Shown in pieces: positions 11,200 through 24,027 of a stretch of DNA of 24,027 nucleotides. Origin of the DNA: a virus. Location: positions 1 through 24,027 of the IMG/VR virus record IMGVR_UViG_3300020034_000069; one strand, given 5' to 3'. The notes under the pieces are model-generated. The model was not told where the DNA came from. It saw nothing but the letters and a program-made list of their open reading frames with translations, and made no database searches. Within the stretch, counting starts at the first letter, position 1. Each line of letters starts with the position of its first letter. The position numbers and the translations under genes were made by a program.

Positions 11200-13454
11200 C
11201 GCATGATTTCCTGTATCCGCAGGGACGTCTGTACTGAGTTCGGGTTCCACTTCACTGACGTCAGCGTGGGGGTCTTGACCGCAACTGCGTAAGTCGTGAG
11301 CGACGTTGTGTTAGGGAAATCCTGCGCCATCATCGTGACGGGCGCGTAGATGTCCACCCCGTCTACTGTGCCCGTCTTGCCCAGCGCAAAGATGAACGGC
11401 GCCGAGCCGATCGCCGTAGCGCCCCGCAGGATCGACGCGTCGATTTGAGACGTGGCCCCGGAGGCGCTACCCACCGTCCCGTTGTACATGTGCCCGCTGG
11501 CTTCGACCACGACAACGTTCGCGGCGCTGCTGACAATGATCCCCTGCGACAAGCCTGTGGTTGCGTAGGTGTTGATCGCGACTGTCGTGGGCGAGCTGTC
11601 AACCTTGTAGTAACTGCGCACCTGATCGCCCGGCCGATGCACGCCAGGGCTCAACATCTGCGTCGTGATGTAGTTCGATGTCGTCCACGTGCCGGCAGTG
11701 ACGCCCGAGGAATTCCATTCGAGGTAGCCAAGAATAATCAGCGCCTTGTTCGTGGTCGCTGTGCCCGTGTAGACAACGCCAGCAGTATCGGCACCGCCAG
11801 CACCGCCTTCGGCCGTGGTCGCTGCAATGATCCCTTCGTTCAGCGGGAACAAATTGGCGGTGTCCCAAAGATTGACGACACCGACGCGGAACGTGCCTGC
11901 GTCATTGATGCCAACCACCCACAGCCGAATGGCATTGGCCGACACGACGCCCAACGTCGAGCCCGACGACACCACCAGCGAATTCGCCGCAGTCAAGCTC
12001 AAGACGGTAGCAGTGCCAGTCGTCCCGGTCACATCGCGGAACACCGCCGTGACAGGGTCGCCCGCGCTCGGGTCAGCCCCGGCGTTGGTCTTAACTGCAA
12101 TCGTCAGCGCACCGCCCGCAGCCGACACTGCAAGAGCACCGTTGATAAAAACCGGGTTCTGCCCATAGACCGGCGACACGCCCGCGGCCGTGGTCCACGT
12201 CAGCGCACTGCCGTTGCCGTTGCTCGTGAGGAACTGCCCCGAGGTGCCCGGCGTGCTCGGCAGGATCATCTGCCAATTGCCGGCGGCGGCTTGCGGCCGC
12301 ATCGTCACCGCGCCCGACGTGTTACCGTTGAACAGGAGCTGCCCGGCGATCGAGCCCGAGGCGCCGAGCGACAGCGACGCCGACGCCGTGCTGCCCGAGA
12401 ACTGCCCGAGCTGCAGCGCGCCGTCCGTGCCGCCTTGGATGTTGACGCGCGCCCCGCCGGAGCCCGCCCCCGAGGTCGGACGAAGCGCGAGCGTCGAGCC
12501 TACCGCCGAGCCGCCATAGACGATCGGCGAGGTCGTAGACGTAGCGAACGTGCCAACCGGCGCCACCACCGACGTGCTTGCCGTCATCGTGGTGTTCGAG
12601 TTGACACCACCAGTCGCGAACAGCGTCCCAGTGGTAATCGTGGGGACCGTCAGCGAGCCTGCGATCGACGGGGTCGACGTGAAGGTTGGGACACCGCCGG
12701 GCGAGGCCAGGATCATTCCGGTTGAGCCGGTCTTGGTCGTGATCGGGCTCGTGCCTGCACCGACAACAACGCCGTTGCTCGTGATCGTCGCAACGCCCGT
12801 GCCCCCATGCGCGACGTCAACGACGCCCGTAAGCGCGAGGGTCGTCGGCGTGCCGTAGCTCAACGCGAGCGGCGCCGTCGCCGTCAGGTTGGCCGACGTG
12901 ATCGGACAAACCGCATAGGCCGGCGGGGTGCTCGGGCCAGTGCTGACCAAGCACAGCCCCGCGGTGCCCGGCGTCGCGGTGGTTGGGTTGAACGCCCAAG
13001 TAAGATCGTTCCCAACCCCGTTCGACTGCAGCACATAGCCGCTAGGCCCAGGCTGCAGCACCTGCCACGAGCCGTTGAGGCCGAAGGATGCCTTCATCGG
13101 AATGCCGCCGATTACAGGCGGGCGCACGATGTCAAAACCGAGCGTGTCAAGGAACTGCGACTGCGTGATTGGCGTCGGGTTGGCACTGCCACCAGTGACG
13201 TTGCCAAGCACCGTGTTCGTCGTCATGAACGGCAGCTTGAACTGCGACACCGACGACAGGTCGAACGTCCAGCTAGGCTGCGCGGTCGGGCCTTGCGACT
13301 GCAGGAGCTGCCCCACCTGCCCTCCCGGCACCGGAGCCCACCCGGACGGTCCACGATAGATCATGTCGCCGGGACTGGCGGCGAAGAACGTATTCTGCGC
13401 AGCGACTTCGAGCGGCGCGAGCGCCAACAATGCGGCGAGTAGAAATCGCTTCAT
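11196..13454 (-). CDS. Long tail fibre-like protein with Sec signal peptide
   Basis: 752 aa. ATG 13454 overlaps the preceding stop as ATGA. Residues 1-20 (MKRFLLAALLALAPLEVAAQ) are a textbook signal peptide. The body is Thr/Ser/Gly-rich with fibre repeats: GQLLQSQGPTAQPSW (48-62), GYVLQSNGVGNDLTW (139-153) and, further on, GQFLTSNGNGSALTW share one pattern, and VVDVAHGGTG (211-220) is the GGTG fibre motif. Other fibre-type pieces are TVLGNVTGGSANPTPIT and beta-rich stretches to the end. The C-terminal 250 residues look like a globular beta domain and may bind the receptor. The mature part has two cysteines (168 and 183). Probably the main adsorption fibre. The signal peptide is unexpected, and its use is not known. 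Confidence 0.8.
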   Translation of the reverse strand: MKRFLLAALLALAPLEVAAQNTFFAASPGDMIYRGPSGWAPVPGGQVGQLLQSQGPTAQPSWTFDLSSVSQFKLPFMTTNTVLGNVTGGSANPTPITQSQFLDTLGFDIVRPPVIGGIPMKASFGLNGSWQVLQPGPSGYVLQSNGVGNDLTWAFNPTTATPGTAGLCLVSTGPSTPPAYAVCPITSANLTATAPLALSYGTPTTLALTGVVDVAHGGTGVATITSNGVVVGAGTSPITTKTGSTGMILASPGGVPTFTSTPSIAGSLTVPTITTGTLFATGGVNSNTTMTASTSVVAPVGTFATSTTSPIVYGGSAVGSTLALRPTSGAGSGGARVNIQGGTDGALQLGQFSGSTASASLSLGASGSIAGQLLFNGNTSGAVTMRPQAAAGNWQMILPSTPGTSGQFLTSNGNGSALTWTTAAGVSPVYGQNPVFINGALAVSAAGGALTIAVKTNAGADPSAGDPVTAVFRDVTGTTGTATVLSLTAANSLVVSSGSTLGVVSANAIRLWVVGINDAGTFRVGVVNLWDTANLFPLNEGIIAATTAEGGAGGADTAGVVYTGTATTNKALIILGYLEWNSSGVTAGTWTTSNYITTQMLSPGVHRPGDQVRSYYKVDSSPTTVAINTYATTGLSQGIIVSSAANVVVVEASGHMYNGTVGSASGATSQIDASILRGATAIGSAPFIFALGKTGTVDGVDIYAPVTMMAQDFPNTTSLTTYAVAVKTPTLTSVKWNPNSVQTSLRIQEIMR

Positions 13455-14377
13455 GGCGATGCCCCAATGGCAGTTAGGTAGGTGTTCAGAATGTTGTAGA
13501 ACGCCAGCTCTTTCCCTGTGAGCGAAGCGCCGATGGCCCCCGCTGCCTGCTGACGGATGGAGAAGTCAGCAGTCTGAGCACCCAAGAGACTACCTGTCCC
13601 GCTAGAGAGGGCGGCGGATGTAGATGCGACATCCGCTCCTACTTGAACGCCGTTGCGCCAACCACGCTGAATTGACGAAGAAGGTCGCTGTATTCCAATT
13701 AACCCGGTCCCGTCAGTATTCGCACGAGTGACAGAGGCGCTGCCTTCCACTGTTCCAACGAGATTGTCACTCGCATTGCGCGCAAAAATGCGGTAACCGC
13801 CAGCCGCGTTCCGCCCCATATCCGCGCTTGCGGATTGACCATCCGTGCGCGACCAAAACCACAACGAGCCGTCATTTTGTGTGATCTTTACGCCGTTGGT
13901 GCCCGGTGACCACGCAAAGTTTAAGCGAGACGTGGAACCATCACCCTGATACCCGCGGTCCACTGTAAACGTCGGCACGCCAACAGCGACCAACGTAAAC
14001 GAGCCCGGCGTGATCCAATTGATCAACCCGTTCTGAGCCGCCTCTGCGGCGAGCACCCAAAAAACATCAAGGTCATCCCAAATGGTCGCGGCTTTGAGCG
14101 ACACCACCATGTTGTTGATCAACACCTTGCGCGCTGATGACGGCGCGGGAGACATCGCGTTGAAGATCGCAATCGACGCCGGGTCGAACGAAGGCGTCAC
14201 TCCTGTGGTTTTTAGAAAGCCCGAACTGTTGACTTGAAACGTCGTCGCCTGTCGATTGATCAGTGTTGGTGAAGTGAGGTTGTACAGCCCACCCCACAGC
14301 TCCGCAGGCGTCTGCGCCGGCAGTGAGCCGATCGCAACACCGAGCAGCAGCAAAAACGCGAGAACTGCCCTCTTCAT
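13451..14377 (-). CDS. Exported lectin-like fibre protein, paralogue B
   Basis: 308 aa. ATG 14377 overlaps the preceding stop as ATGA. Residues 1-22 (MKRAVLAFLLLLGVAIGSLP) are a signal peptide, followed by the module GGLYNLTSPTLINRQATTFQ with VNSSGFL. The first 56 residues are almost identical to those of the next gene upstream. The middle (VDRGYQGDGSTSRLNFAWSP, GVKITQNDGSLWFWSRTDG, RGWRNGVQVG) resembles ConA/LamG-type beta-sandwich lectin domains. The C-terminus (IRQQAAGAIGASLTGKELAF) is shared with the paralogue. It has no cysteines in the mature protein, unlike its five exported neighbours. A glycan-binding virion or surface role is inferred. Confidence 0.78.
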   Translation of the reverse strand: MKRAVLAFLLLLGVAIGSLPAQTPAELWGGLYNLTSPTLINRQATTFQVNSSGFLKTTGVTPSFDPASIAIFNAMSPAPSSARKVLINNMVVSLKAATIWDDLDVFWVLAAEAAQNGLINWITPGSFTLVAVGVPTFTVDRGYQGDGSTSRLNFAWSPGTNGVKITQNDGSLWFWSRTDGQSASADMGRNAAGGYRIFARNASDNLVGTVEGSASVTRANTDGTGLIGIQRPSSSIQRGWRNGVQVGADVASTSAALSSGTGSLLGAQTADFSIRQQAAGAIGASLTGKELAFYNILNTYLTAIGASP

Positions 14378-15312
14378 GGTGTGGCCCCAACTGCGAGCAT
14401 GTAGGTGTTCATGATATTGAAGAAAGCCAACTCTTCACCAGTGAGCGCCGCACACCACGCCCCCATGGCTTGCTGTCGTGCTGAAAACTGTGGAGACGCA
14501 ACACCGTTCCCATTTACCCCCAACATCCACGCCGGATTGGTTGCAACCCCGCCGCTGTTGGTGACAACATTAACGCCTAGCTGAACCCCACTGCGCCAAT
14601 ATTTTTTTGTCGCGCTGTCAGGACGCGAGATGCCAAACATCCCCACCGACGTCGCGTTCGCCATAGTGGTGGCATTGCCGTCGTTGAGATTGCCGGAAAA
14701 CACGTTCCCCGCGGTTCGAAGCGATGCGGCGTGTCCCAAAGCTCCATTCACGCCGATCTCGCGATTAGTAGTTGTGCTTTCGGTGCGCGACCACACCCAC
14801 AGCGATGCGCTGTCTTGAACAAACTTCACGCCATTTGTGGAGGCTGTCCAAGTAGTGTCAATCCGTGAATTTACCCCATTACCCGTGTATCCTCGATCAA
14901 CCACAAACGGCGGAGCTAGAGTTGGGACCAACGTAAACGCGCCGGGGCTTTTCCAATTTATCCTGGCATTCTGCGCAGCCTCCGCAGCCGTCACATACAA
15001 AAGATCACAGTCATCCCAAATGGTCGCGGCTTTGAGTGCAACCACCGTGCTGTTGATCAGAATTTTGCGCGCGTCGGAAGGAGCGGGAGAGAACGCATTG
15101 AAGATCGCCGTTGCCGCGGGGTCGAATGCCCCAATCGACGTCGTGCGAAGGAAGCCCGAGCTGTTGACTTGGAACGTCGTCGCCTGTCGATTGATCAGCG
15201 TCGGCGATGTGAGATTGTAGAGACCACCCCAAAGCTCGGCAGGCGTCTGCGCCGGCAGTGAGCCGATCGCGACACCGAGCAGCAGTAGGAATGCAAGAGC
15301 CGATCGCCTCAC
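14374..15312 (-). CDS. Exported lectin-like fibre protein, paralogue A
   Basis: 312 aa. GTG 15312 in a GTGA overlap with the preceding stop. It shares the signal peptide and N-terminal module with paralogue B, both at protein level and nearly at DNA level (15153-15312 against 14218-14377). The central lectin-like domain is colinear but diverged (VDRGYTGNGVNSRIDTTWTA, GVKFVQDSASLWVWSRTEST, KKYWRSGVQLGVNV). The C-terminus (ARQQAMGAWCAALTGEELAF) is again conserved. Two cysteines lie in the mature part. Tandem duplication with a conserved anchor and changed centre is common in receptor-binding proteins, so these two may bind different host glycans. Confidence 0.78.
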   Translation of the reverse strand: MRRSALAFLLLLGVAIGSLPAQTPAELWGGLYNLTSPTLINRQATTFQVNSSGFLRTTSIGAFDPAATAIFNAFSPAPSDARKILINSTVVALKAATIWDDCDLLYVTAAEAAQNARINWKSPGAFTLVPTLAPPFVVDRGYTGNGVNSRIDTTWTASTNGVKFVQDSASLWVWSRTESTTTNREIGVNGALGHAASLRTAGNVFSGNLNDGNATTMANATSVGMFGISRPDSATKKYWRSGVQLGVNVVTNSGGVATNPAWMLGVNGNGVASPQFSARQQAMGAWCAALTGEELAFFNIMNTYMLAVGATP

Positions 15313-15503
15313 GGCGTGGCGACTTTCAGGTTGCCGTTGACGTCACACTGCAGCACCGACTGCTGGCGGTTCACCAGCACGGGCGGCGTCGAGTTGTAGA
15401 TGCAGCCTGGGATCACGTTCGGGCTCGTCTGGTTCTGCCCGATAGCGGAGCCTACTGCAGCTGCAACCAACGCGCCGGCGACCATCCACAAGAACTGTTT
15501 CAT
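15309..15503 (-). CDS. Short exported protein carrying only the shared fibre module
   Basis: 64 aa. ATG 15503 overlaps the preceding stop as ATGA, and its own stop overlaps the next GTG as GTGA. A hydrophobic segment or signal peptide (MKQFLWMVAGALVAAAVGSA) is followed by CIYNSTPPVLVNRQQSVLQC and DVNGNLKVAT. This aligns with GLYNLTSPTLINRQATTFQV and NSSGFLRTT of the two following proteins, so it is a short paralogue consisting of the N-terminal module alone. This pattern is a widespread module in phage tail proteins. Two cysteines (34 and about 53) could form a disulphide. A small cap, anchor or adaptor for the two lectin-like proteins is possible. Confidence 0.75.
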   Translation of the reverse strand: MKQFLWMVAGALVAAAVGSAIGQNQTSPNVIPGCIYNSTPPVLVNRQQSVLQCDVNGNLKVATP

Positions 15504-15826
15504 TGCTGTAGCCCCTCAAGGTGACGTCGAAGATAATAGGAATTCGGGTTCCACGTCAAAGCGTTCTGAACCGATCTTATAGCAGGTTCTCGGGCTTCGG
15601 CTATCCCCAAGCCGGATGCGATGTATATCCACGTGTACGCGGGGAGCTGACGGAAGGCAGTCTTAACGGGGAAAACCGAGGCCGCTTGCTCGTATCCAGC
15701 TATCTTTTCCTCGATCGTTCCGGGCCAATTCACGGCCTTGTAGATTTCCCAATTCGCAAGCGCCCAACCACTCGCGTACAGGACGCCGATCGCGAAGAAG
15801 ACGGCCAGCGGCAAGCCCCGCAACAA
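15500..15826 (-). CDS. C-terminal part of O-antigen ligase/polymerase-like gene, shifted frame
   Basis: About 108 aa if translation starts at TTG 15826 (GGGGA lies six bases upstream); an ATG at 15892 has a poor SD. It opens with a membrane helix (LPLAVFFAIGVLYASGWALA), then NWEIYKAVNWPGTIEEKIAG and a short TPR-like end (SVQNALTWNPNSYYLRRHLE). The frame is offset by one base from the Wzy-like gene. If one G of the GGGG run (15816-15819) is removed, the two frames join as VFVAGLPLAVFFAIGV, giving one protein of 420 aa, a normal length for the family. So it is more likely the broken-off end of that gene, by mutation or sequence error, than a separate gene. It couples to the next gene by ATGA. 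Confidence 0.5.
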   Translation of the reverse strand: MLRGLPLAVFFAIGVLYASGWALANWEIYKAVNWPGTIEEKIAGYEQAASVFPVKTAFRQLPAYTWIYIASGLGIAEAREPAIRSVQNALTWNPNSYYLRRHLEGLQQ

Positions 15827-16763
15827 AGACCGTCCCCGGCATATACAGTGGGAACGCAAAGACGCCCATGCACGCGAAAGCGATAAGCACATAGCTCTCA
15901 GTACGAACAGGCCCAGCAAGACAACAAACGAGAAACCCAACCCACAGAAGCGCGCCAACAACACCAAGCTCGAAGGAGATTTGGAGGTAGTCATCGTGCG
16001 CGTACTCCATGAACGGGTAGGACCAGTCAGTTGATCCTACCCCATGGCCCAACCAGCCCAGGTGTCGGATCATATCGCCCCACAGCTCCATTCGCAGGTT
16101 CGCCGACGGCGCCCGACTTGTAGTCAACACGAACGCGCACAAGAGTAGCACCGCAGCTAGGACAACCATGCAGCCGTAGAACTTTGACCGCGCCCACGTC
16201 CAGCACGCGCCTACTACCGCCAACGCAACCAAGGGCGTGCGTGACAGAGTGTTCCCAGGAAACGCCAGCAGCGTAATCAACATTGGACTGCATGCGATCC
16301 TCCATTTCCAATTGAGCGTGAGCACACCAATGATCGCGAGCGCCGTCACTTCTGCCCCCGCGTTCTTGTTGTAGAACAGCCCAGCCGGCGGGATCGCCTC
16401 AGTGACCGGATGATAGCCAGCAACCTGCAAGGCTACAATCAACCCGTTTAGCGACAGTGCCAGCCCCAATCCTTTGTATATAGATTTCATTTCGCATGTA
16501 GGTAGCCAGCCGATCGAAAAGAACAGAACCAACCCCCACAGCACGAACAAGCCTTGTCCGAGCCCCGGCGTCCACAGCAGAGAACACGACGCCCAACATA
16601 AAAACAGGAGCCCCAGGACATCCCCAATTGTCCAGGGACGTGGGCGTGTCAGCATCAAAATCAAAGGCACTGCTATCGACAATATCGCCCATCGTGTCCC
16701 GGTGCCTCCGTCAGCAAACCAGCTGATGCACGCAATCGCCACCACGAATGCGAGGACTGGCAT
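15663..16763 (-). CDS. Wzy/O-antigen-ligase-like polytopic membrane protein
   Basis: 366 aa as read. ATG 16763 overlaps the portal stop by one base (TAATG). There are about nine or ten membrane segments. Family marks of the Wzy_C / O-antigen ligase group are visible: GLFYNKNAGAEVTALAIIG (128-146), NTLSRTPLVALAVVGA (171-186), then the large loop with LRMELWGDMIRHLGWLGHGV (223-242) and YAHDDYLQISFELGVVGALL (254-273), holding Arg224 and His256 as likely functional residues. Such proteins polymerise or transfer lipid-linked O-antigen in the periplasm. In a phage this would alter the host surface (seroconversion, superinfection exclusion). The last roughly 48 residues are arginine-rich and unlike a membrane protein; a frameshift near 15816-15819 is suspected. 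Base composition is similar to the neighbours. Confidence 0.82.
   Translation of the reverse strand: MPVLAFVVAIACISWFADGGTGTRWAILSIAVPLILMLTRPRPWTIGDVLGLLFLCWASCSLLWTPGLGQGLFVLWGLVLFFSIGWLPTCEMKSIYKGLGLALSLNGLIVALQVAGYHPVTEAIPPAGLFYNKNAGAEVTALAIIGVLTLNWKWRIACSPMLITLLAFPGNTLSRTPLVALAVVGACWTWARSKFYGCMVVLAAVLLLCAFVLTTSRAPSANLRMELWGDMIRHLGWLGHGVGSTDWSYPFMEYAHDDYLQISFELGVVGALLWVGFLVCCLAGPVRTESYVLIAFACMGVFAFPLYMPGTVFVAGLAAGRLLRDRRPVREWLGACELGNLQGRELARNDRGKDSWIRASGLGFPR
15816..15819 (-). other. Suspected frameshift site in the Wzy-like gene
   Basis: A run of four G on the minus strand. Reading three instead of four joins codon 316 of the Wzy-like frame to the hydrophobic frame of the downstream reading frame without a break. 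The shift needed is +1, which does not fit the usual -1 slippery heptamer, so an indel or sequence error is more likely than programmed recoding. Confidence 0.6.
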
Positions 16764-19541: not shown

Positions 19542-21505
19542 CGTGGCCTCTGCACAAGCGCTGAAATATAACGTCTCCCGTCTGCCGTCACCTGATAGTT
19601 GATGCTGTCATCCCGCGCTGCGGACACTGCCTGTAGCATACCTGCAAATTGCTCTAAACCCTCAACCAGCACCCGATATTCGTTTTCGACGGGAAACTCG
19701 GTAACAACCCCGTGCTTGCTGACTTCCTTGCAGAACCCCGCGGCGAACGCGTTCAGCGTCCACTTCGCATCCAGGCTCACACGGAGCGCGGGGTAGCCTT
19801 TGGCGTTGCGCCCAAGGACACCGCGTATTTCCTCGCGCCCGATAAGCTCGGAAGTCCCCTTGCGCAAGTCAACGGGAATACGGCGCGCAGCCGCTCGAAG
19901 TCCGAGAGTGTCATGGTCACGGAAATGGTCTGGTCCAGCGACGACACGAATTTTTCCACCGGCTTCTGCTCCGGCGCTTGCGAGAATGTCTGCAAGGTTG
20001 GCCCCTGCGTCGCCTTCGCGCACCCAATCTCTAAGGACATGCAGGCCTCCATTGATGATTTGAACTAGAACTGCGGTGGTGAAGATGTTGTTCGTGTTGA
20101 CAGCGAGATACACCGGCTCCCTACCCACTCGGTGCAGCTCATCTGCGACGTTGGCGTAAGAGAAATCGTCATAGATAGGGGCGCCAGGGCGTAGCAGCAG
20201 AGCAAAAGCCAGAGCATTAGGCACGTCAATTCGACCAGTCGGAAAACCCAAAAATTGCTCCCTCGCATCCGGCAGGTCTTTCGCGAAAATGACTTCTCGG
20301 GCCTTAAAGAATGGCTGCAGGCCTTTGATGAAGTCAAGTTTCGACTTCGGAGCACGAAGAGGGCGGATGGGTATCGCGTAGGAGCGGCGCAGCTGTTCCT
20401 GTCGTAGCGGCTGCAAGATGAACTCTTCCAACCCATCGCGCTCAACCCCGATCGTGACCGGCCCGAACGCCTCATCCACTCGAAATATGTCGGAAATAAT
20501 CTCGTCGGGCTTCCACATGCCCGCGTAGGCGTCCCACACGATCAGCCGGTTGTTGATCCAGCTCCAAATCGCCACGCCGGTGCTAGCGCTGCCCTTGTTC
20601 ACGGTGCGCGCGGGGTCGTACATCGCATAGACCGCCTCCCACACGCGCACGGTAGGCTCTACGCGAAACATTTCCGCAGTGAACGGCTTCTGCGTCAGGT
20701 CTTCCGCCCGGCACATGAACTCCTGCTCGAAGTTGTCATGCAAGCCCAGGCGCTGATACACGCGCCGTTCTTCTGCGATCCACGCAACGGGGAAGCGCGA
20801 GGGCCACGACGCCACGGGCTCACCAGTCTCTGCGCTGACATGCTCGATCGGATAGGTCTGCACCTGCCAATTCGGCTGCAGCGACAGTTGCTCGATCACG
20901 CTCTTGGGGTGCAGCGGCGTGCCGTTGATGCGCACGGTCGCGCTCGGGTCAAGCGCGGGTATCACCACGCTCATGAGCCAGCGCATGCACTTCGCTATCG
21001 CCTCTTCGGTCGCGACACTCTCTTCGTTTTCGATGTCGTCGCCGAACGCGCGGTCTGGCCTGAAATCCAAATGCTTACTTCCACGTAGGGATTGCCCACG
21101 ACCGAAGGCCTGAATGATGACACCGTTCGCGAGGATGATCTTAGTTTCAGTCCACGTAGACCCAACCATGTTCCCAAAAAGCTGCTCGATAATTGGGTTC
21201 GTCTCGAATTCGTGTTTAATGGCACGTAGACGCTCAATCGCTCTTTCGACAGTCTCGCCAAGAATGATGCCGTTCCGGAATTGTCGAAACAATGCCTGAA
21301 CGCAGATTGCCTCTTCGGCGATCGTGCTCTTGGCCGCGCCGCGGAACGCTTTGATGAGGACACGAGGGTGCTCCGAATGCCATGCTTCAATTATCTTTGC
21401 GTGAAAGGCAGGGCTTTCATTGGGGTGCCGGTGCGCAAACAGAACCTTGTGCGCTACCCACGGATCAGAACCTAGCTCAATGATCGCTTCCTTGACATCG
21501 TTCAT
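19538..21505 (-). CDS. terL: Terminase large subunit (ATPase and nuclease)
   Basis: 655 aa. ATG 21505 (MNDVKEAIIELGSDPWVAHK) overlaps the HNH stop as ATGA, with GGGGAG 11 bases upstream; the longer frame reads into the HNH gene. ATPase: Walker A KAFRGAAKST (52-61), Walker B region AFGDDIEN (153-160), coupling-type RINGTPLHP (192-200). Nuclease of the RNase H fold: MYDPAR (Asp297), VERDG (Asp357) and GRIDVPNALA (Asp427). It drives ATP-dependent DNA packaging through the portal and cuts concatemers. Residues 465-655 are extra and look like a second, degenerate RNase H-like domain (VYLAVNTNNIFTTAVLVQII, GGLHVLRDWVREGD). No small terminase gene is recognised nearby. Confidence 0.92.
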   Translation of the reverse strand: MNDVKEAIIELGSDPWVAHKVLFAHRHPNESPAFHAKIIEAWHSEHPRVLIKAFRGAAKSTIAEEAICVQALFRQFRNGIILGETVERAIERLRAIKHEFETNPIIEQLFGNMVGSTWTETKIILANGVIIQAFGRGQSLRGSKHLDFRPDRAFGDDIENEESVATEEAIAKCMRWLMSVVIPALDPSATVRINGTPLHPKSVIEQLSLQPNWQVQTYPIEHVSAETGEPVASWPSRFPVAWIAEERRVYQRLGLHDNFEQEFMCRAEDLTQKPFTAEMFRVEPTVRVWEAVYAMYDPARTVNKGSASTGVAIWSWINNRLIVWDAYAGMWKPDEIISDIFRVDEAFGPVTIGVERDGLEEFILQPLRQEQLRRSYAIPIRPLRAPKSKLDFIKGLQPFFKAREVIFAKDLPDAREQFLGFPTGRIDVPNALAFALLLRPGAPIYDDFSYANVADELHRVGREPVYLAVNTNNIFTTAVLVQIINGGLHVLRDWVREGDAGANLADILASAGAEAGGKIRVVAGPDHFRDHDTLGLRAAARRIPVDLRKGTSELIGREEIRGVLGRNAKGYPALRVSLDAKWTLNAFAAGFCKEVSKHGVVTEFPVENEYRVLVEGLEQFAGMLQAVSAARDDSINYQVTADGRRYISALVQRPR

Positions 21506-21993
21506 GGGCAATGAAACTCCCCGAACAGCTCGCGCGCCTTCGCACAGTAGACTGCGTGTGCCTCTTCGGGAGTATCGTAAAGGCCCAGGTTCATTTGCTT
21601 GTAATTGTAGCAGATAAGCGCAGCCCATCGATCTTTGTGCGGGTGCACGCCGCGGAAGCCGCTTTTGTTGCGCGCAGGCATGTTGGCAAGCTGCTGCTGC
21701 CGGGTTGCCAATCGCAAATTATTCCAACGACAATTTTGGCGATCACGGTCTTTGTGGTCGACTTCGTGCGGGGGCCACTTCCCTGTCATATAGAACCACG
21801 CCCAGCGTTGCTCAGTCGTGCGCTTTCCTCGCACAGTGAGGTAGCGATACCCGGCGGCTTCGTTCCATGAGCCCGCGCGAGCACCCGCTTCAACCAAGTT
21901 CGAAGGCTTCACAAGCCAAATAAAAATCCCCGTGAGGGGATCGTAGTGCAGCAACTTTTTCAATTCGCTAGTGGACAATTTTGAGGATGGCAT
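21502..21993 (-). CDS. HNH homing endonuclease with AP2 domain, upstream of terL
   Basis: 163 aa. ATG 21993 lies inside the end of the coiled-coil gene (26-base overlap). HNH core: QRWAWFYMTGKWPPHEVDHK then NCRWNNLRLATRQQQLAN. The AP2-like part is SGFRGVHPHKDRWAALICYN, ending LFGEFHCP. It is the same family as the gene on the other side of terL but clearly diverged in sequence, so the two are separate acquisitions or an old duplication. The codons for GEF again give GGGGAG, the SD of terL. Likely mobile and not needed for the phage itself. Confidence 0.9.
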   Translation of the reverse strand: MPSSKLSTSELKKLLHYDPLTGIFIWLVKPSNLVEAGARAGSWNEAAGYRYLTVRGKRTTEQRWAWFYMTGKWPPHEVDHKDRDRQNCRWNNLRLATRQQQLANMPARNKSGFRGVHPHKDRWAALICYNYKQMNLGLYDTPEEAHAVYCAKARELFGEFHCP

Positions 21994-23300: not shown

Positions 23301-23554
23301 AGTTCTCTCCACCAAGAGAAAAAACCAGGAGCTTGCGGCGGTGTCGGGGAGTGTGGTCGGGGGGACCAAAGACGGTGCTGCAAGCTCCTGCTAGTTATCG
23401 GCTGGCCGTCGCCAAGACATACCAACCGAGGGAGGCGCCCAAACAGAGGAACCGAACTAGCAACCGAGTGACTTGTAGTGACCAGAGGACGCTCGATGTC
23501 ACGTTCGTTCCACCATTGGAACGGTCAACAGCCAACCACAGGTCTGCACCGCTG
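23301..23554. other. 254-nt leader without a gene
   Basis: Largest gene-free stretch inside the window. It contains the terminator-like structure 23319-23390 and a small inverted repeat, CGTTCC/GGAACG, near 23508-23525. No convincing frame exists: the plus-strand frame across it is Arg/Pro-rich and lacks an SD. I see no certain promoter. Confidence 0.6.
23319..23390 (-). terminator. Long-stem terminator or attenuator in operon leader
   Basis: On the minus strand CAGGAGCTTGC (23390-23380) pairs perfectly with GCAAGCTCCTG (23336-23326), an 11-bp stem closed by a 43-base arm region that holds a small hairpin (GGTC/GACC). Six T residues (23324-23319) follow one base later. The structure sits only six bases before the SD of the next gene, so it could act as a terminator of the 88-aa gene or as an attenuator for everything downstream. 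Confidence 0.65.
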
Positions 23555-23821
23555 TCAAGCGTCCCACCCGGGATGCCACTCCGGGGGCTCGCACTTGTCG
23601 ACTTGCGACAGCGCGCAGGCGGCTCGATAGAGGTTCAGCGCATTCGCGCTTGTCGCGATTGTCTCGACGCGGCCATCAATCGTCCCGGTCAACGAGTTGA
23701 GCGAGCTGACCACCCGCTGCAGCTCATACGTCGTCCGCTGCACGATCTTGTAGCTGGTCTGCACTGCACCTGCCTGCACGCGCCCCCGCAGCATCTCGTC
23801 AAACGCCGAATTCCCAACCAT
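23555..23821 (-). CDS. Small hypothetical protein
   Basis: 88 aa. I choose ATG 23821 (MVGNSAFDEMLRGRVQAGAV), with GGGAG six bases upstream and a candidate promoter 44-72 bases before it; a start at 23893 would lie on the -35 box. The protein is mostly helical (YKIVQRTTYELQRVVSSLNS, TIATSANALNLYRAACALSQ) and ends CEPPEWHPGWDA. No family recognised. As the first gene after the regulatory region it may be expressed early. Confidence 0.65.
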   Translation of the reverse strand: MVGNSAFDEMLRGRVQAGAVQTSYKIVQRTTYELQRVVSSLNSLTGTIDGRVETIATSANALNLYRAACALSQVDKCEPPEWHPGWDA

Positions 23822-23864
23822 GTGTCTCTCCCGGTACTGCCCAAGCTCTCTCGGCCATCTGTCC

Positions 23865-23893
23865 TGCATAGCTCGCTCGGTTGGGAAAGTCAA
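23865..23893 (-). promoter_or_regulatory. Candidate promoter of leftward operon
   Basis: TTGACT (23893-23888), five of six -35 bases, is followed after exactly 17 bases by TATGCA (23870-23865), a weak -10. It would start RNA near 23858 and give a short leader to ATG 23821. It lies just downstream of the repeated motif at 23936-24004. Confidence 0.4.
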
Positions 23894-23921
23894 ACCGCTG
23901 CGTGTGAGCGCGGGGCGTATG

Positions 23922-24004
23922 GGGTAATAGGTATAAAGGTTAAAGGGTAATGGTGTAGTAGGTTACATGTAATGGTGGGGGGTTATAAGGTTAAAGGGTA
24001 ATGG
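23922..24004. repeat. Direct repeats in AT-rich regulatory region
   Basis: The 18-bp sequence AAGGTTAAAGGGTAATGG occurs at 23936-23953 and again, identical, at 23987-24004, 51 bp apart. Shorter relatives (GGGTAATAGG at 23922-23931, GTAATGGTGG near 23969-23978) lie beside them. The stretch 23911-24020 has no gene and differs in composition from the rest. A protein-binding site array (operator or iteron) is the simplest reading. Confidence 0.7.
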
Positions 24005-24027
24005 AATAAAGCATGCTTTTGGGAAGG

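Follow-up and report, generated by a model that had tools for sequence, protein, structure and literature searches.

The closest described systems are three, and each is considered here as presented in excerpts of the respective report. The late promoter P23 of the S. aureus phage Phi13 carries three perfect 18-bp repeats, the deletion of which abolishes activity, and its activator is Ltr (PMC13123087). The parS/promoter arrays of pSM19035, which are bound by the ribbon-helix-helix (RHH) protein omega, are built of short direct units, seven to ten in a row, which are non-palindromic and have the consensus WATCACW (PMC9499535). Finally, oriL and oriR of phage SPP1 combine direct repeats with an adjoining AT-rich element, one of the two origins being located in a long intergenic region (PMC6316719). 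A literature search on phage tandem repeats, origins and divergent transcription yielded nothing relevant.

The window analyzed here, i.e., the entire stretch of 24,027 nucleotides, is from an unclassified tailed phage. Its right end is a cut end, located inside what appears to be a divergent control region with the minus strand leading toward the window's genes, the structural block of which includes a head-tail adaptor as well as major head and tail proteins. The terminase matches 654 records of the phage collection, each with less than 60% identity; the last 2,028 bases of the window have no blastn match in that collection, a terminase search of genome_contigs returned no relative, and Rfam yielded nothing at gathering score for the window. 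A search with the window's first open frame, confirmed by tblastn, identified a sole close relative, IMGVR_UViG_3300020034_000033 (L002; 44,591 bases; terminase 83% identical), the record of which extends beyond the window's cut end, and two relative searches with window proteins led to this contig and to no other close relative. In the relative, an AT-rich gap of ∼0.85 kb, which holds the array described below, extends from the start of a leftward, divergent gene for a 344-aa DUF932 protein (14023) to the ATG of a leader gene; the G+C content is 44% in kilobase 14001–15000 vs. 55–67% in the other kilobases. DUF932, DNA polymerase, exonuclease and helicase genes are found on the leftward side of the gap, and the leader, small genes, the terminase and the structural block on its rightward side. 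As a separate observation, an HNH endonuclease gene (21502–21993, minus strand) is placed in the window between the terminase gene and its neighbor; it has no match at the corresponding locus of the relative and is thus probably a mobile insertion.

The first-pass annotation had pointed to two identical 18-bp repeats 51 bp apart, and these are indeed present at 23936–23953 and 23987–24004, reading CCATTACCCTTTAACCTT on the minus strand (AAGGTTAAAGGGTAATGG as named for the identical pair). They are the segments that resemble each other most within a tiled array, which is built of short WWACC-type units with a period of ∼7–8 bp, spans positions 23923–24001 (minus strand) and comprises ten ACC cores from 23999 to 23923 at spacings of 8, 8, 7, 13, 9, 6, 8, 8 and 7 bp. 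Eight of the nine spacings are thus between 6 and 9 bp, and the 13-bp interval contains the degenerate unit ATTACA. Since the true period is 7–8 bp, the earlier argument that the helical spacing indicates protein binding on one face of the DNA is weak: it may hold for the pair of 18-mers, but does not for the array as a whole. The composition differs from the coding part, as had been stated, with 43.8% G+C in the last 121 bases (23907–24027) vs. 0.56–0.63 in 300-base windows between 22050 and 23999.

Both the WWACC motif and the range of spacings were picked after inspecting the two sequences, so that the array statistics are descriptive: seven ACC spacings of 6–8 bp are matched by 1 of 2000 shuffles (mean 1.64) and the WWACC count by 33 of 2000, and the bare ACC count, matched by 279 of 2000, is unremarkable. 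An exact repeat of at least 18 bases was obtained in none of 2000 dinucleotide shuffles of the 92-base stretch 23917–24008, and when the whole window was shuffled 100 times in the same manner, no exact repeat exceeded 17. The window's own longest exact repeat (32) must belong to a family within genes at 14214–14385 and 15149–15320; this 172-bp direct repeat (85%), which is shared by two adjacent genes both matching phrog_26223, is likely a tandem gene duplication. With 8 units per 100 bp, the array is the densest WWACC cluster of the window, where at most 3 are found elsewhere. For the background in the other loci examined, a count which leaves out L045 as the locus carrying the relative's own array, 2125 of 2127 windows of 100 bp with 35–50% GC contain at most 3, the two exceptions being L041 with 4 and L034 with 6, the latter in an array of a different kind. 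WWACC density was counted in all 20 loci of a DUF932 search; the relative is one of these, and identity is at most 57% for the next locus. The array of L034 (4867–4987, minus strand), located near a DUF932 gene, is a separate one with seven GAATACC units at spacings of 36, 15, 16, 16, 15 and 16 bp.

In the relative, a shorter array of the same grammar is located at the same place (L002 2917–2975). It has seven ACC cores at spacings of 18, 9, 7, 7, 6 and 7, that is, five of six between 6 and 9 bp, and constitutes the densest WWACC cluster of the 44.6-kb record (5, with at most 3 outside it). It is weaker than the array of the window, since its spacing statistic is reached by 16 of 2000 shuffles and its WWACC count by 232 of 2000, which is not remarkable. 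When window and relative are aligned, 45 of 76 bases are identical in the array and 14 of 24 in the gap. Judging from these comparisons, the array is conserved in kind in one relative, and with one close relative only, the pattern common to both phages partly reflects shared descent. The expectation that further copies or conservation of the repeat would be found is thus borne out for the grammar of the array and not for the literal 18-mer, which, allowing up to 4 mismatches, recurs neither in the rest of the window nor at any place in the relative (best match in the relative: 5 mismatches); this rules out the 18-mer as a dispersed element. Scanning viral_contigs with 16 of its 18 bases yielded four contigs with one copy each, none of which has a WWACC cluster exceeding 4 per 100 bp.

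These figures also bear on the question whether a specific binding array is present at all. The upstream DNA could instead be AT-rich and of low complexity, resembling an UP element or being curved, with the 18-mers having arisen in it by local duplication; the exact duplication is seen in the window only, the relative has a shorter array with some irregularity, and the modest identity of the aligned arrays would be in line with such an origin of the repeats. We nevertheless consider this unlikely, as (i) the ACC cores recur at 6–9 bp in both phages despite changed letters between them, and (ii) the array spacing is seldom reproduced by shuffles. The array is real, and ordinary in its class.

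Downstream of the array on the minus strand, 29 bp from its last unit and 42 bp from the nearest 18-mer, is the hexamer TTGACT (23893–23888), which was proposed to form a promoter with TATGCA (23870–23865) at a distance of 17 bp. These letters are present beside the repeats as described, and TTGACT (five of six bases of the −35 consensus) is kept in the relative. However, TATGCA matches TATAAT at three of six positions only and is replaced by CATGCT at the same spacing in the relative, and the promoter scans reported neither TTGACT-TATGCA nor its counterpart; compared with a sigma-70 promoter having both hexamers near consensus and 16–18 bp apart, the −10 is thus weak and not conserved. What is conserved is a block of 21 nt that includes TTGACT (TTTGACTTTYCCAACCGAGCG; 23874–23894, minus strand), which is identical to the relative at 20 of 21 positions, against 21 of 42 for the bases directly following it. 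Spacers of promoters are normally not conserved, and the block may thus represent a site for a protein that overlaps a −35, and not a promoter of the ordinary kind. When viral_contigs was scanned for exact matches to an 18-nt pattern from the block, one contig was returned, the relative's, and neither the window nor the relative has a second copy with fewer than 5 mismatches. We thereby rule out a family of phage-specific promoters: apart from a single occurrence of a 20-nt version of the block in each of the two sequences, the scan at up to 5 mismatches gave two hits in the window and one in the relative, each of them at exactly 5. The latter hit, at 29010–29040, also gave a weak 31-base match (E 8e-4); it falls in the end of a predicted gene and is devoid of TTGACT. 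The search for a phage RNA polymerase (PF00940) was uninformative, with 0 control genomes giving a match.

The short, direct and non-palindromic units, consecutive and with a period near 7 bp, resemble the omega heptads at what is here a candidate promoter (excerpts of PMC9499535), and one may ask if the array is an operator at which a repressor of the ribbon-helix-helix or helix-turn-helix type turns the promoter off, in the manner of omega on pSM19035. A strand-helix-helix N-terminus (E12–17, H18–30, H35–43) was predicted with low confidence (pLDDT 40) for the different leader protein of two more distant loci, L017 and L020, although this leader has no Pfam match at E 1 and no match in the close relative. 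Moreover, the WWACC-type units are unlike WATCACW, are spaced by 6–9 bp rather than forming contiguous heptads of strictly 7 bp, and lie upstream of the TTGACT block instead of over it, which together renders a repressor array improbable. A search for RHH_1 came up empty in 6 of 6 records, with a positive control in 10 of 14 genomes; diverged RHH proteins can escape such a search, and the window covers a fragment of its genome. Among the proteins of the relative, the sole regulator-like one to turn up was a small HTH_31 protein (L009:10200–10481), which is not tied to the array.

The leader gene itself (23555–23821, minus strand; 88 aa) is preceded by the Shine-Dalgarno-like GGGAGAG at 23826–23832, and from there to the ATG (23831–23819) 13 of 13 bases are identical to the relative, whose leader (L002:3073–3339) is 84% identical. 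Neither Pfam nor PHROG provided a family for the leader protein at E 0.1, and its model is mostly helical at low confidence (pLDDT 56). Further downstream, at 23319–23390 (minus strand), an 11-bp stem (CAGGAGCTTGC/GCAAGCTCCTG) with a long loop is followed by TTTTTT; 2 of 200 shuffles fold as well (z −3.24). The counterpart in the relative (z −3.79, 0 of 200 shuffles) likewise has a U-tract, and its stem letters are partly changed and still paired. The hairpin looks like a terminator between the leader and the structural genes. In the corresponding position, a weaker hairpin is found in L006 (z −1.27, 23 of 200 shuffles as good) and a strong one, folded without shuffle control, with a poor U-tract in L004. 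A small hairpin at 23303–23322 (minus strand) is predicted by folding to cover the ribosome site (GGAGAG) of the next gene downstream of the terminator-like hairpin, as is the case in the relative.

A wider terminase search provided nine loci, one of which is the close relative; two others, L014 and L015, are contigs of L004 and L006. An AT-rich stretch is located upstream of the terminase in L004, L005, L006, L017 and L020, and these five loci amount to three independent cases, since L004 and L005, as well as L017 and L020, look like near-copies. For L019, the 6 kb preceding the terminase reveal no clear AT-rich gap (lowest 200-base window: 46.5% GC), and L016 and L018 do not extend that far. 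In the stretches examined of L004, L005, L006, L017, L019 and L020, no cluster exceeds 3 WWACC per 100 bp, and the gaps of L004 and L006 contain no direct repeats of 12 or more. L006 exhibits a near-consensus TTGACA-16-TATACT toward the structural genes, which speaks for a promoter region at this place, but not for the array. Turning to the leaders of these loci, that of L017 and L020 (L017:668–1000) is ribbon-helix-helix-like by eye and in a low-confidence model, and the gene at the leader position of L004 (6667–7248) matches a formyltransferase domain (PF00551).

The main rival is a replication origin, in which the units would be iterons for a phage initiator, the adjoining AT-rich DNA an unwinding element, and transcription control secondary. 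It holds this rank because the relative's minimum of the GC skew is located here: the cumulative skew is lowest (−188, −170, −186) in kilobases 13001 to 16000, which include the gap, although divergent transcription alone can give the same skew. In excerpts of PMC6316719, the SPP1 origins are likewise direct repeats beside an AT-rich unwinding element, a likeness of layout. Such direct repeats beside AT-rich DNA are found in the relative, the gap of which contains a 22-nt direct repeat (L002 2556–2577 and 2580–2601, 91%), and the window is cut off at this point. On the other hand, no initiator gene was recognized among the relative's scanned proteins, which cover part of its genes and many of which are without a family, and the more distant relatives lack the array. 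In contrast to the SPP1 origins, the array furthermore adjoins a promoter candidate on the late side, being hard against the conserved TTGACT block and the leader gene. We thus regard an origin as possible but on the unlikely side, with the qualification that the probabilities of these explanations overlap, as one site can be both origin and control region.

We favor, with somewhat better than even confidence, that the region is the control region of the structural operon, where an upstream regulator array switches a promoter within or close to the TTGACT block. What is observed is the array with its counterpart in a single relative, the conserved 21-nt block and the gene arrangement; that a promoter is active here, that a protein binds, and in which direction and when control is exerted are inferred. 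The earlier proposal of a control region facing the window's genes is supported by the same-grammar array, the TTGACT block and the divergent genes of the relative, even if its −10 element finds no support in the comparison. On the minus strand, the parts would be arranged as the 7–8 bp WWACC array, a 29-bp gap, the 21-nt block, the leader gene, the terminator-like hairpin, and the packaging and structural genes. A phage- or host-encoded protein would bind the units cooperatively along the DNA, and when positioned on successive units would control transcription of the leader and structural genes by switching the promoter at or near the block; the most likely outcome would be that the structural operon is activated after the replication genes have been expressed.

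The nearest tested case is then Phi13 P23, and by analogy the region would most likely work like the repeat-activated late promoters of staphylococcal phages. As in Phi13 P23/Ltr and the RinA/Ltr families, repeats are located directly upstream of a promoter, here a candidate, for packaging and structural genes, with array and TTGACT block preceding leader, terminase and head genes; 18-bp repeats occur in both, three perfect ones in P23, according to the excerpts of PMC13123087, and two in the window. Unlike in P23, however, the units of the window are 7–8 bp and the −10 is weak. Since the relative's neighbor is the divergent DUF932 gene, there is also no Ltr-like gene directly upstream as in Phi13, and given this difference in the position of the regulator gene we do not assign the array to the Ltr/RinA type.

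It is tempting to speculate, even though we deem it rather improbable, that the region represents a late-operon switch of a new make, in which a cooperative array of ∼7-bp WWACC units bound by an undescribed DNA-binding protein would drive a constrained, non-canonical promoter block, with the leader and a conserved hairpin terminator following. If this were true, the structural genes would need both activation and read-through, since the transcript would first meet the leader and the hairpin. Arrays of repeats are already familiar both from origins and from the DNA preceding late promoters, and the gain is hence local and not conceptual: a likely control region between replication and structural genes has been located in a phage group far from annotated phages, and short, testable cis elements are provided for this group.
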